DNA of 60,444 bases from an uncultured bacterium (GTDB lineage: Bacteria > CALINM01): NCBI GenBank assembly GCA_938045315.1, contig CALINM010000065.1:1-60444 (forward strand). Direction: 5' to 3'. The translations under genes were made by a program, and so were the position numbers. Below, piece after piece: positions 1 through 21,003 of the stretch. Below the pieces are notes generated by a model. The model did no database searches and was not told the origin of the DNA. It was given only the letters and a program-made list of their open reading frames with translations. Every line of letters starts with the position of its first letter. Position 1 is the stretch's first letter.

Positions 1-2402
1 TCTCTAAAAAGTATATAAACATCACCTTGGGGATTTAATTTTTTAAATGCAATCGCATTTTTTATGGAATGGCTACAACATATTCTGGAGCAATAGTTTC
101 TCTCATTATTTCTACACCCCACACACTGAATCATAACAAGGTTTTTTATCCTTTTAATTTTTTGATCCCCCTCATAAATTAATTTTTCCAACTCTCTGTT
201 TGTAAAAACATTTTCTGACACACCATATAGATACTCTTTTGGTTTATATTCTTTTGCACCTGTTGCAATAATAACTGCGCCATGTTTAATCTCCTGGGTC
301 TTACCCTTTTCATCCCTGATCTTTGTAAGAAAATTACCTACATAACCTGTGGCTTCAATAATTTGAACACCTGTATACACATGTATTAATGGTTCCTTGT
401 ATACATCTGAAATTAGTTTTTTTAAATACTCCTTAACATCATTATCTTCTAAGGTTTTATAGATATATCTTGCATTACCCCCTAACTCTTTTTCCTTCTC
501 TATTAAGAATACCTCTATTCCCTGTTTGGCCAGTGATAATGCAGAATTCATCCCAGATATACCACCACCTACGACTAATGCTCTTTTATCAACAGAAAGA
601 CTTATTTCCTCCAATGCCTGTAATTTCAATGACCTCGCTATTGATTTTCTTACCAGATCCTTGGCTTTTTTTGTTGCCGATTCTTTATCCTTTGGATGAA
701 CCCAGGAACAGTGCTCCCTGATATTTGCCATATCCACATAATACTGGTTTAATCCTGCTTCTCTCAAGGAATCTCTGAAAGTTGGCTCATGAGTCCGGGG
801 GGTACATGCGGCAACAATAATTCTATTTAAATTGTGCTCCTTTATCGCATTCGTAATCTGTTTTGCTGATTCTGTAGAACAAGAAAATAATTGAGTTTGG
901 ACATAGGTTACATGGGGTAATGACTTTGCGTATTCTGCCACTTCTTTAATATTAACAACCCTGCCTATATTTGCACCACACGCACAGATAAAAACACCGA
1001 CCCGTGGTTTTTCATTAGATACATCTTTTTCTAAGGGGTAAACCCTTTTTGTTGATAGTTTCCCCCTTCTCTTCGCTAAAAATTCACCAGACCTTGCGCT
1101 GGCAGAACTTGCAGTATACACCGCTTGAGGTATATCCATGGGAGAAATGAAGCTACCGCTTACAAAAATGCCCTTTTTAGAGGTCTCTACAGGCGTGAAA
1201 GGGTCAACTTTTGCAAAATTATTCTCGTTAAGATCAATGCCAAATTTATTTGCTATCGTTCTCATATCATCTGGATGATCTAAACCAACAGAGAGAACAA
1301 CCATTTCAAATTCTTCTTCAATAACCCCCATGTGAGGGGTTGAATATTTAATAAAAATATTTCCCGTTTTTTTGTCTTCTCTTACAACACTTACATAGCT
1401 TCTTATGAATCTTACACCCGATAAATCTACGGCCCTTTGATAGAACCTTTCAAAATCCTTTCCGTAGGCCCTAATATCATTATGGAAAACTGTACATTCA
1501 GCATCAGGTATGTGATCTTTAGTTAAAATCACCTGTTTCTGAGTATAAGTACAACATACTGAAGAACAATAGCTATTAGACGGTTTTTGAAGAGAACGAG
1601 AACCCACACACTGAATCCATGCAATCTTTTTTGGACGCTTTAAATCAGAAGTTCTTTTAATTTCCCCTTCATAGGGTCCTGTGGAGCTCAAAATCCTTTC
1701 ATAGTCCATGCTTGTTAAAACATTTTTATATTTTCCATAGCCATACTCATTTAATAACTTAGCATCAAAGGGTTTAAAACCCGCAGAAATTATTATGGAA
1801 CCAACTTTTATTTCAAGCTTTTCAGTTTTTTGAGTAAAATCAATCGCTTTATTTTCACATACGTTCTCACAAATACCACATTTTTTTTCTTTGAGATACA
1901 AACATTCCTTGCTAATATAGGCAATAAGTGGTATTGCCTGAGCAAAATGTATGTGAATAGCTTTATTTTTAGAGATCTCCTGATTAAACACATCGGGTAT
2001 TTTTACAGGGCAGTACTCCTGACACACACCACATCCTGTGCATTTTTCTTGTATTACATATCTTGGTTTTTTTACAAGCCTAACAGTAAAATCTCCAGCA
2101 GAACCCTCTACACTCTCCACTTCTGTATAACTGAATACCCTTATATTAGGATGCCGGCCGACCTCGACCAGCTTAGGTGACAGTATTCAGATGGAACATT
2201 CATTGGTGGGGAAAGTCTTATCAAGTTGGGCCATATGGCCACCAATAGAAGGCTCCTTTTCCACCAGATAAACCTTAAACCCCGAATTAGCGAGATCAAG
2301 ACTTGCCTGAAGGCCACTTATACCACCGCCTACCACAAGTACATCTCCAAAAATTTTATCGCCCCCTATAAACTTAAGGTAATTAATGCTTGTAACTGAC
2401 AT
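1..2402 (-). CDS. hdrA: HdrA-like heterodisulfide reductase subunit, probable selenoprotein (C-terminus cut by window edge)
   Basis: This is a flavin and iron-sulfur electron-transfer protein of the heterodisulfide reductase A family. The frame is open from 2402 to base 1 except for one TGA at 2187-2189 (codon 72). Order: FAD motif [26 protein letters not shown]; the [18 protein letters not shown]; ferredoxin motif [12 protein letters not shown]; a CGICENVCE cluster motif; CVGSR and YCSSVCC. A second, complete HdrA-like module then begins at about base 1000 ([54 protein letters not shown]). The TGA sits where HdrA proteins normally have Cys (CSxCILSP), so I read it as selenocysteine. The start at 2402 has GGAGGG four bases upstream; an in-frame ATG at 2429 lacks this. 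The two-module layout is larger than a standard HdrA. Family role: flavin-based electron bifurcation or disulfide reduction in the cytoplasm. The physiological partner is not visible. Confidence 0.85.
2153..2172 (-). promoter_or_regulatory. Bacterial-type SECIS hairpin in the hdrA coding sequence
   Basis: Fourteen bases after the in-frame TGA (2187-2189), minus-strand RNA can form a perfect seven-pair stem. The 5' arm is GCUGGUC (2172-2166), the loop GAGGUC (2165-2160), and the 3' arm GGCCGGC (2159-2153), with two G-U pairs. Bacterial SECIS elements lie just downstream of UGA inside the gene and carry a GU in a small apical loop; the E. coli fdhF loop is AGGUCU. Both spacing and loop match. 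The stem is GC-rich in an AT-rich gene, and the codons still encode the conserved LVEVGRH stretch. SelB recognition is inferred; no selA, selB or tRNA-Sec gene is in the window. Confidence 0.78.
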
Positions 2403-2421
2403 TAAACCCTCCATATTTTTA

Positions 2422-2631
2422 TTAATCATTAATGAGCAATATATGTGCCATTGTTATATCACTTACTATTAACAATAACTTATTGTCATTATTGAAAATT
2501 TGTTGTGAGAGGGATCTTATACATTGCGATAAATCATAACCAAAAGTGGTAAAAAATAACCATTTCTTTACCAATTCCTTTTTTATCTTTTGAAGTATTA
2601 AATTCACAAGCAAAATTTTATTATCCAACAC
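2422..2631 (-). CDS. Possible small protein of unknown function (69 aa)
   Basis: A 69-codon frame begins with GTG two bases after the stop codon of the siroheme reductase gene and ends 19 bases before the preferred hdrA start. The product is rich in Lys, Leu and Ile, has a short hydrophobic run near its C-terminus, and one Cys. I do not recognise it. No convincing Shine-Dalgarno sequence precedes the GTG, so it would depend on coupling to the upstream gene. The segment FFTTFGYDL is faintly like DsrE/TusB-type small sulfur proteins, but that is too weak to name it. It may be non-coding spacer. Confidence 0.3.
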
Positions 2632-2633
2632 AT

Positions 2634-4892
2634 TTAATGTATTTTTTGCACAACTACCTGATAGTACACTCCTTTTTTTTCGATGGAAACTATCTTTTGA
2701 CCATCTTCTTTAAGGCTCGCAGGCACATTTTTTATGGGTTCTCCTTCATCAAGATAGAGTATTAAACTGCTACCAATTTCCATTTCTTCTAATTTTAGCT
2801 TAGCCTTTACATAGTTAAGGGGACAGGGCACCCCCCTAAGATCAAAAACTTCTGAAGTATCAGCTTTTTTTTCTTGATCGGGAACTTCATATCTAATTGG
2901 AAGATTAAATGAAGAGTCAATATTTTTATATGTTTCCTTAACTTCTCTTAAAAGTTCATTGGCATACTTTAATGCTTCTTCTTCAGGGATTACACCTTTT
3001 TTTAAGTTTTCTACGAAATCAGGCAAATTTTCATATTTTCTTGGAAAAACGCCACCATATACAAGATATTTAACAAAGTTTATCACTGCATCATCAAAAC
3101 TAATAGCATCAACACCCTTCAAAACTAAGAGTGCTCGTGAAGAATAAAGAATTTTTTCTAAAGGTGTTTTAGCTACATCTGCCTGAGCTATGTCAGATTC
3201 AATCATATCTATAACACCTGCTCCACACTCTCCCTGTGAGATACCTTGAAGGGAAAAATCCTCTTCTTTCTCAAAATCTTTGTAGTAATCCCTATTTTCT
3301 TCATAATTGGGGACAAAAGAATATTTATCTATTAATGGTTGAAGAATTTCCATGCCTTTTTCTTCTAATGTTTTTTTTGGATTATCAAATTTATCTAGAA
3401 TTTCTACTAATTCTCTAATAAAATAGGGAATGCTCCTGGCTGGTATCATCCCCACTGATTTACCAAGTTCTGTTTTTTCACACTTATTCTTCCCACCTAC
3501 TAAAACATTATAATAAAGAACACTCCTACCCGCAACTTTTCTAACCGTACCAAACATTCCCAATGTGCCAACTGGATGTTGCCCACAGGCATTGGGACAA
3601 CCATTAATATTAATTTTAAACCCTACCCATTTTTCATATGAAATTTTGATTTCTTTTAATGTACCTATAATTGCCCTTCCAAGCCCAGGGGCATTGCCAA
3701 GCCCGAGGTTACAGGTCGTTGCACCTTTACAGGTCTGAATGTCTAAAAGCGTATCGGGATAATAAAATTCATTCAAAAACTCTTTTAATTTATTATGAAT
3801 TTCTGAAATTTTACTTCTTGGAACGTTTGCAATTATTAAATTCTGTCTTTGAGTAACTTTAAAATAAATATCGGAGAATTCGTTACTAAGACTTGCTAAT
3901 CTTTTTGCCCCTTGGGCATCTAAATCTCCTAGGGGTATTCTTAACAGAACATAGCAATAATTATCATTATGGGGAAAAACAGAAAATTTAAAAAAGTCAT
4001 CGTCTCCTTTAAATTCTTCTCCTTCAGTTTCTATTTTAAAACAATTAATATCATTAGATAAAAATTTTTGTTTAAATTCTTCTTTATTGATTAACATTTT
4101 TTCTTCTAAATAACGATTTTTAAACCAATCAAAACCCCTATCATCTATTAAAAACCTCAGTCTATTTCTAAAACGATTTTTTCTATCACCTTCATTGTTA
4201 TATACCCTGATTATTGCAAGTATAGATTGAAAAAGTTCATCAATATTTAATGCATCCTCAAATAGATTTCCAACCCTTGATTTTGCTCCCATACCACCAC
4301 CAACAATAACTTTAAACTTGTTATTATCAATCGCTACAATGCCAATATCATTAACCCCTGTTAAAGAACAATCTTTATCACAGCCAGATATAGCAATTTT
4401 AATTTTCCTTGGAAGTGTTGTTGCAAAGGATTGAGAAAGAAGATATTGGGATAAATATATAGAAAGTTTATAGGACGGAAATTTCTCACATTTACATAAA
4501 CCAGAGTTTGGACAGGCGGTAATATTTCTTATTGTATTACCTCCACCACCGCGGGGTGACATACCATTTTTATGAAGAATTGAGAGTAGCTGCCCGGCAT
4601 TTTCATAGTTAACATCGTGAATCTGAATATCCTGCCTCGTTGTAAGATGAAGTTTACAATTACCAAACTTTTGGGACAGATCTCCTAACAAATAAAGCTT
4701 ATTTGGTTCAATTATGCCTGCTGGTATCCTTACCCTACACATAAGTTTTTTACCACCTCTTTGAGAATAAAATCCCCATGGGACCCTGATTCCCCTAAAA
4801 AAATTCTCAGTCATCTCTCCTTTTAAATATTTTTGTAACGCTTCCTGAAAATGTTTTTCCTCTTCAATAAATTTATCGGGAATAACAAACAT
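2634..4892 (-). CDS. Siroheme/[4Fe-4S] nitrite-sulfite reductase fused to a C-terminal TusA domain
   Basis: The 752-residue product has two homologous ferredoxin-like/siroheme halves and then a sulfur-carrier domain. Half one (about 1-260) holds CPNSGLC (C127, C133) and GCDKDC (C171, C175). Half two (about 290-530) holds CKGATTC (C388, C394) and GCPNACG (C432, C436), the classic siroheme-[4Fe-4S] ligand set. Residues about 682-740 form a TusA/SirA domain (DLRGVPCPLN, C690). The family reduces sulfite or nitrite by six electrons in the cytoplasm. The TusA tail points to sulfite or a protein-bound sulfur species, which is inference. Most NirA-type enzymes keep cluster cysteines only in the second half, so the double set is unusual. 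The start at 4892 (MFVIPDKF) follows GGAGG by four bases; a longer frame to 4982 would run through the promoter and is rejected. hdrA lies downstream. Confidence 0.9.
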   Translation of the reverse strand: MFVIPDKFIEEEKHFQEALQKYLKGEMTENFFRGIRVPWGFYSQRGGKKLMCRVRIPAGIIEPNKLYLLGDLSQKFGNCKLHLTTRQDIQIHDVNYENAGQLLSILHKNGMSPRGGGGNTIRNITACPNSGLCKCEKFPSYKLSIYLSQYLLSQSFATTLPRKIKIAISGCDKDCSLTGVNDIGIVAIDNNKFKVIVGGGMGAKSRVGNLFEDALNIDELFQSILAIIRVYNNEGDRKNRFRNRLRFLIDDRGFDWFKNRYLEEKMLINKEEFKQKFLSNDINCFKIETEGEEFKGDDDFFKFSVFPHNDNYCYVLLRIPLGDLDAQGAKRLASLSNEFSDIYFKVTQRQNLIIANVPRSKISEIHNKLKEFLNEFYYPDTLLDIQTCKGATTCNLGLGNAPGLGRAIIGTLKEIKISYEKWVGFKININGCPNACGQHPVGTLGMFGTVRKVAGRSVLYYNVLVGGKNKCEKTELGKSVGMIPARSIPYFIRELVEILDKFDNPKKTLEEKGMEILQPLIDKYSFVPNYEENRDYYKDFEKEEDFSLQGISQGECGAGVIDMIESDIAQADVAKTPLEKILYSSRALLVLKGVDAISFDDAVINFVKYLVYGGVFPRKYENLPDFVENLKKGVIPEEEALKYANELLREVKETYKNIDSSFNLPIRYEVPDQEKKADTSEVFDLRGVPCPLNYVKAKLKLEEMEIGSSLILYLDEGEPIKNVPASLKEDGQKIVSIEKKGVYYQVVVQKIH

Positions 4893-4929
4893 GTTTCCTC
4901 CATTTTTCTTTATCATAATAATAGTAGTA

Positions 4930-4957
4930 TTTTTATTTATCTTATTTTTTTTGTCAA
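4930..4957 (-). promoter_or_regulatory. Sigma-70-type promoter for the siroheme reductase gene
   Basis: On the minus strand a perfect -35 hexamer TTGACA (4957-4952) is followed after 16 bases by TAAAAA (4935-4930). The predicted start is near 4922, giving a leader of about 30 bases that contains the GGAGG before the ATG at 4892. The -35 is strong, the -10 only fair. Confidence 0.55.
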
Positions 4958-5007
4958 GTTTTTTGTTATTATAATTTCCCAATCAACTTTTTGAATAAAA
5001 AAATGAG

Positions 5008-10931: not shown

Positions 10932-11118
10932 AAAAAAATCCCCAGAATGCCGTGTGTATTATGGGCTTATAAGCTTAAAACTACTAAGTGGAGCCAGTGT
11001 TGATCGCTTTAGGCTTCCTCCTACGCGGGAGGCTTGCACACCACGATCAGGGACCAGCTCCCTTCTAAGAGGTGTTGGCTCAAGCCCTTAAATACATCAC
11101 GTACATCCCAGGGATTTT
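10932..11118 (-). ncRNA. ssrS: 6S RNA
   Basis: Between zapA and rny the minus strand encodes a long imperfect hairpin of about 185 bases. The ends pair (AUCCCUGGGAUGU near 11115 with GGCAUUCUGGGGAU near 10940). Inside them GGGCUUGAGCC pairs with GGCUC and AAGCCC, and a GC-rich terminal arm CCUCCCGCGUAGGAGG lies near 11027. This is the 6S RNA architecture, a promoter-open-complex mimic that binds sigma-70 RNA polymerase. The position directly after zapA is the classic one. Exact ends are estimated; a T-run follows the 3' end. Confidence 0.88.
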
Positions 11119-20878: not shown

Positions 20879-21003
20879 GATCAGCTAAGTGGCAGTCAGG
20901 ATAACTGCGGCACACAAAGAGGGCCACTACCGTTGCTTCCTTCCGGACCTGGCGGGGTTTGCAGCCATTTGTTGCGCAGGTCCCGACTGCCACTCAGGCG
21001 ATC
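20879..21003 (-). ncRNA. ffs: Signal recognition particle RNA (small bacterial type)
   Basis: The minus strand encodes a rod-like hairpin of about 125 bases. GATC at both ends and GTGGCAGTC/GACTGCCAC pair to form the base, and the tip contains the conserved symmetric-loop/tetraloop region CAGGUCCGGAAGGAAGCA (near 20951-20934). That is the Ffh-binding domain of 4.5S/SRP RNA. The Alu domain is absent. It lies 11 bases downstream of tRNA-Ser and just upstream of dnaX, a widespread gene order. Ends are estimated from pairing. Confidence 0.93.

Follow-up and report, generated by a model that had tools for sequence, protein, structure and literature searches.

Analysis of the window (the whole stretch of 60,444 nucleotides) revealed that the minus-strand frame 2429..3 contains a single stop, the TGA at 2189-2187, and that it belongs to hdrA, coding for a two-module (type II) heterodisulfide reductase subunit A, of which the 5' 800 codons lie at 3..2402 (minus strand). 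Since a ribosome-binding site GGAGGG (2407..2412, minus strand) precedes the ATG at 2402, the UGA (2187..2189, minus strand) was counted as codon 72, and the HdrA frame is broken at this codon only, as the initial annotation had described. An alternative in-frame ATG is found at 2429; residues of HdrA are numbered here from this ATG, and the UGA is then residue 81.

The window edge (base 3) falls inside hdrA, and the gene is completed on contig C122 of the same genome (L075 1-734), which overlaps by 16 bases at its start; hdrA therefore sits across two contigs of a fragmented draft. The joined full-length HdrA (C65 and C122) is 1048 aa, with about 970 codons of intact frame after the UGA, and the size of the protein was put at about 1040-1050 aa. 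Within the window, the UGA of hdrA joins two long coding stretches with 729 codons downstream, compared with 196 for the next best candidate, and no second UGA linking two long coding stretches was found there.

The homology to HdrA was indicated by the NCBIfam HdrA2 model (796 bits, under the full-length cut-off of 1100 for this fused and window-truncated query) and by a phmmer comparison with 5odc (E = 1.7e-172), the best solved-structure match by sequence. Ungapped alignment to the 5odc HdrA placed residue 81 at Cys197 and residue 78 at Cys194; 54 aligned homologues carry Cys at the former position, in agreement with the initial annotation, which had put the UGA at an HdrA Cys position.

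The upstream neighbour of hdrA is a siroheme sulfite/nitrite-reductase-type protein fused to TusA (2634..4982, minus strand), the same fusion that had been noticed earlier, and the next gene beyond it codes for the heme b synthase AhbD. In the orthologous locus of another genus of the same family the gene order is kept, but an opposite-strand alkaline-phosphatase-like gene intervenes, so that the gene order gives no operon-type support to the siroheme reductase-TusA fusion and hdrA acting together. DsrA gave no match above the cut-off in the draft genome; the fusion is the only DsrA-like match of the draft, and its TusA domain also weakly matches YedF. On the other side, mvhD lies directly downstream of hdrA both here and in the orthologous locus and is followed here by genes for a cold-shock-type protein and XseA, named by sequence reading. 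Neither hdrBC nor hydrogenase genes adjoin hdrA, mvhD being the only such partner there, and HdrB-type CCG proteins are encoded elsewhere in the genome, including beside a second hdrA copy. Genes for 6S RNA and bacterial small SRP RNA were identified with Rfam at 10935-11117 and 20891-20988 of the window.

Hairpin 3' of the UGA and selenocysteine machinery

A putative bacterial SECIS hairpin is located at 2153..2172 (minus strand), its stem beginning after 14 bases (2186-2173) counted from the UGA. The minimum-energy fold, GCUGGUCG-AGGU-CGGCCGGC, has an 8-bp stem and -14 kcal/mol, with the loop 22 nt past the UGA. The 7-bp stem with loop GAGGUC, 14 bases after the UGA, that had been proposed at first is correct, and the minimum-energy drawing adds one pair to it, giving the 8-bp stem and the loop AGGU. 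The published model of bacterial SECIS elements (PMC13188914) sets an apical loop of 3-9 nt with an upper stem of 4-16 bp, a G within the first two loop positions (usually G[G/U]), a UGA-to-loop distance of 16-37 nt and a minimum free energy of at most -7.5 kcal/mol. The hdrA hairpin falls within all four constraints of this model, with a loop of 4 nt on a stem of 8 bp, the loop Gs in A-GG-U, 22 nt of spacing and -14 kcal/mol. A hairpin score this high was obtained at one of the 2117 TGA triplets on both strands of the window, namely the hdrA site, and at 6 of 40256 in-register positions. A search of the region 2050-2300 with the covariance models of the Rfam SECIS families, at E up to 5, gave no match. 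A separate Rfam SECIS_3 match (50 bits, gathering threshold 63) was observed at L073 10805-10863; the gene that contains it is molybdopterin-oxidoreductase-like, follows a Sec-HdrA/MvhD pair on the downstream side and possibly codes for a Sec formate dehydrogenase.

The genome (1.86 Mb, 92% complete) carries a tRNA-Sec with anticodon TCA, together with SelA (513 bits), SelB (358 bits) and SelD (316 bits), all above their family cut-offs; the gene for SelD itself has a UGA near the N-terminus, with the motif ATAAGU. Absence of selB or selC had been named beforehand as grounds for discarding a selenocysteine (Sec) reading, and tRNA-Sec, SelA, SelB and SelD were all found. Reassignment of UGA throughout the genome (to Trp or Gly, for instance) would also carry translation through the hdrA codon, but with table 11 the standard genes of the window are open and the window shows no further long readthrough of a UGA, the UGA of hdrA lies exactly at a Cys position and is accompanied by the SECIS, and a tRNA-Sec with anticodon UCA is present. 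A reassigned code is considered vanishingly improbable and was rejected on the lack of any other readthrough within the window. By Sec decoding, SelB carrying Sec-tRNA(UCA) would be recruited by the hairpin at 2172-2153 and Sec would be inserted at the UGA, after which the ribosome would read on to give the complete protein; when selenium is absent, translation would end after 71 residues.

Conservation of the UGA and the hairpin among HdrA genes

The orthologue from the other genus (1040 aa, 83% identical) has the UGA at the same codon, followed by a hairpin that is identical letter for letter. Phylum-wide surveys around two genomes (G026 and G059) gave only 3 and 1 genomes, so that 386 broadly sampled genomes were used instead, from which 97 HdrA genes were compared. 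The codon at the Sec site was UGA in 43 of these and Cys in 54, and no other codon was found. Among the UGA genes, pairs having the same amino acid showed a codon identity of 1.00 at positions +6, +8 and +9 and of 0.91 at +12; at those codons the identity was 0.2-0.5 among the Cys genes. The mean excess in synonymous-codon identity of UGA over Cys genes was 0.46 from +6 to +12, while the largest 7-codon excess outside this segment was 0.12, and the two groups barely differed there (mean 0.03, sd 0.07); single-codon z at the hairpin codons was 7 to 11. These counts come from related sequences and carry no formal probability. The folding energy 3' of the codon was -11.7 kcal/mol in UGA genes versus -5.6 in Cys genes (p = 9e-14, without correction for relatedness of the sequences). 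Freezing of codons +6 to +12 that is confined to the UGA genes is as predicted for a SECIS inside a coding region, and the comparison shows that the hairpin is under selection.

These data also bear on the reading of the UGA as a genuine stop, or as the result of a sequencing error or of pseudogene formation in a Cys-HdrA. The assembly is a metagenome-type draft in many fragments, and gene callers would split hdrA at the UGA, both of which are in keeping with such a reading; on the contrary, the UGA and the identical hairpin recur in the orthologue of another genus, 41 further HdrA genes have the UGA, the synonymous constraint is restricted to the hairpin of the UGA genes, the frame is unbroken for about 970 codons beyond, and the sel machinery is complete. 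A stop, error or pseudogene is thus very improbable and was rejected on the conserved UGA, the hairpin and the synonymous constraint. Judged from sequence comparison, Sec is almost certainly inserted at the hdrA UGA.

Alignment of the 43 UGA genes revealed two hairpin registers. Class A, CUGGUCG-AGGU-CGGCCGG, comprises 9 genes including the present hdrA, and those with enough flank examined code for two-module HdrAs; the class A hairpin is near-invariant among genes whose proteins are about 50% identical, which represents conservation and not covariation. Class B, GAUGYC-GGUC-GRCAUC, comprises the other 34 genes and has its loop about 5 nt farther from the UGA than class A. One stem pair of class B covaries (C-G in 17, U-A in 15 and U-G in 2), and the compensating pair couples a Val/Ala codon with synonymous Arg codons. 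The occurrence of two SECIS registers within hdrA may be new. A tree of the 97 HdrA cores requires 9 changes between UGA and Cys, with deep branches mostly weak and the bootstrap unsettled. Two HdrA genes from different families, L136 (G141:C9:9173-9789) and L142 (G062:C1:3208127-3208743), have a UGA at both the Cys194 and the Cys197 positions, in PTMD-U-AI-U-ILGP, with the second UGA followed by a SECIS of class B. A 2026 review gives HdrA as CxxU with one Sec (PMC13188914), so the UxxU form may be undescribed so far.

The adjacent mvhD contains an in-frame UGA in VCYW-U-GYGAADLAG (L075 785-1612, contig C122; L060 5410-6246), followed by a conserved hairpin in the GCUGGAGUUUCCAG region, and the mvhD next to the orthologue is likewise a Sec gene; MvhD is the second predicted selenoprotein of the hdrA-mvhD unit. 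The same genome also carries a Cys-HdrA paralogue, 63% identical (C54:18321-21665; L023/L025/L076/L078), in which an in-frame gap takes out the N-domain together with the beginning of module 2. An aldehyde-ferredoxin-oxidoreductase-like gene, named by eye, lies beside this paralogue, and the mvhD of the paralogue is disrupted by both a frameshift and a TGA. This copy is a decaying gene or the product of assembly errors, and seems to be damaged and not a functional back-up. A TGA near an HdrA-like gene on contig C1 was also considered as a Sec codon and was rejected, as it precedes the gene start.

Module layout and the role of residue 81

Two thioredoxin-reductase/FAD cores are present in one chain, both in the joined 1048 aa protein and in the 1040 aa orthologue, which bears out the large two-module form proposed at the outset. 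Module 1 (1050..2429, minus strand) consists of an FAD/thioredoxin-reductase core with an inserted ferredoxin domain; it contains the Sec position and is without an N-terminal cluster domain. The N-terminal iron-sulfur domain is found between the modules (630..1013, minus strand), where Cys482, 484, 517 and 542 align with Cys11, 13, 46 and 71 of 5odc. The first part of module 2 (3..593, minus strand) holds the second FAD core and has no Cys at the Cys197 position. Glu and Lys residues tied to electron bifurcation (PMC12054007) were identified in module 1 as E244/K298, corresponding to E356/K409 of 5odc, and in module 2, read by eye, in TNRELE and CCSHSIK. The HdrA fold was confirmed by an AlphaFold model built for the orthologue from 11 sequences (mean pLDDT 77), and HdrA chains ranked first when it was searched with Foldseek.

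In the solved complex, according to one paper's reading of the structure, each N-terminal cluster of the HdrA pair receives Cys197 of the partner HdrA as a ligand, and in fused or tandem HdrAs the N-domain and Cys197 are divided between the partners (PMC9012536). The same split was seen in the other two-module proteins inspected, whose second modules have no Cys at the 197 position. Cys482/484/517/542 are invariant among the aligned type II proteins, as is Cys78 (5odc Cys194), three residues before Sec. Since the Sec is in module 1, which has no N-domain, and the N-domain belongs to module 2, which lacks Cys197, we infer that Sec81 rather probably ligates the N-domain cluster across the modules. 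The initial annotation had Sec tuning a cluster or disulfide site in module 1; the Cys position was borne out, but the site is better described by the cluster of the N-domain, which lies here in module 2. Whether Sec acts as a native selenolate ligand, reaching from one module to the N-domain of the other within a single-chain bifurcating flavoenzyme, appears about evenly poised. The UGA in the CxxU motif of MvhD may specify a Sec ligand of the same sort. To our knowledge, from a search that was not exhaustive, a natural Sec ligand of an iron-sulfur cluster has no demonstration, and the assignment of Sec to a cross-module ligand position may be new.

It is also possible, though rather doubtful, that Sec is inserted and the CxxU forms a redox-active selenenyl-sulfide pair, or a modulator of the FAD, instead of or besides ligating a cluster. 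Such a pair would agree with the invariance of both motif Cys positions in the aligned type II proteins, with the UxxU in two HdrAs from other genomes, and with CxxU being a typical selenoprotein redox motif (PMC13188914), but PMC9012536 describes the Cys197 of the solved HdrA as ligating a cluster, and second modules lose Cys197 while holding the N-domain, as expected of a ligand donated by the partner.

With Sec81 as the cross-module ligand, Sec would take over from Cys197 as the only ligand that the N-domain cluster receives from outside and, the N-domain being in module 2, would link both halves of the polypeptide on the low-potential path to ferredoxin. As judged from the HdrA family, HdrA and the adjacent MvhD would constitute a flavin-based electron-bifurcating or confurcating unit, with MvhD as the electron entry and the FAD as the splitting point. 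Taken together, the gene very likely encodes a Sec-containing type II HdrA, with predicted SECIS-directed insertion of Sec, MvhD as the putative partner in bifurcation or confurcation, and the residue as a candidate cluster ligand across the modules.

Standard gene calling would cut HdrA at residue 71, losing the site most likely to join the enzyme halves, and the MvhD partner would equally be cut. The comparison of hdrA SECIS elements provides a strong test, based on sequence alone, of whether a given HdrA contains Sec, and selenium as a cluster ligand in type II HdrA electron bifurcation is a testable proposal.

Relation to known HdrA systems

Bacterial Sec-HdrA, the hdrA-hdrA fusion and the link with Sec-containing FrhD/MvhD were described in 2006 (PMC1794560), and Sec-Hdr proteins of Desulfobacterium autotrophicum in 2009 (PMC2702500). 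Sec-HdrA, fused Sec hdrA-hdrA and Sec-MvhD are thus already known, and the present ones come from a poorly sampled lineage. Like the Sec-HdrAs of Syntrophobacter fumaroxidans, D. autotrophicum and others, the protein described here has a CxxU specified by UGA with an in-frame bacterial SECIS and is linked to a Sec-containing FrhD/MvhD, and it shares the hdrA-hdrA gene fusion reported for Deltaproteobacteria (PMC1794560, PMC2702500). In contrast to them, neither a hydrogenase (FrhA/FrhG) nor a GlpC cluster was seen adjoining hdrA, whose flanks carry the siroheme reductase-TusA fusion on the upstream side and, beyond mvhD, the cold-shock-type and XseA genes.

The two thioredoxin-reductase/FAD cores are shared with type II HdrA of methane-metabolising archaea (PMC12054007), on which no biochemistry has been done so far (PMC12054007), and with the fused HdrA3/HdrA4 (PMC9012536). 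As in the archaeal type II HdrA, the N-part resembles class A6 without the N-terminal cluster domain (PMC12054007), and the Glu/Lys bifurcation residues in both modules and the split between N-domain and Cys197 are the same, but the present protein is bacterial and has Sec in place of Cys197. The module order corresponds to that in PMC12054007 and is the reverse of that given for the fused ANME HdrA3/4 in PMC9012536. The 5odc HdrA of Methanothermococcus thermolithotrophicus differs in having one module and Cys instead of Sec, and in forming a homodimer with HdrBC and MvhAGD. The HdrAU/VhuD of Methanococcus maripaludis is similar in pairing a Sec-HdrA with a Sec-VhuD and in that a Cys isoform is also encoded, while it depends on archaeal Sec machinery and SECIS and its HdrA has one module (PMC11097638); M. 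maripaludis encodes its Cys isoform, whereas the Cys copy found here on C54 looks damaged.
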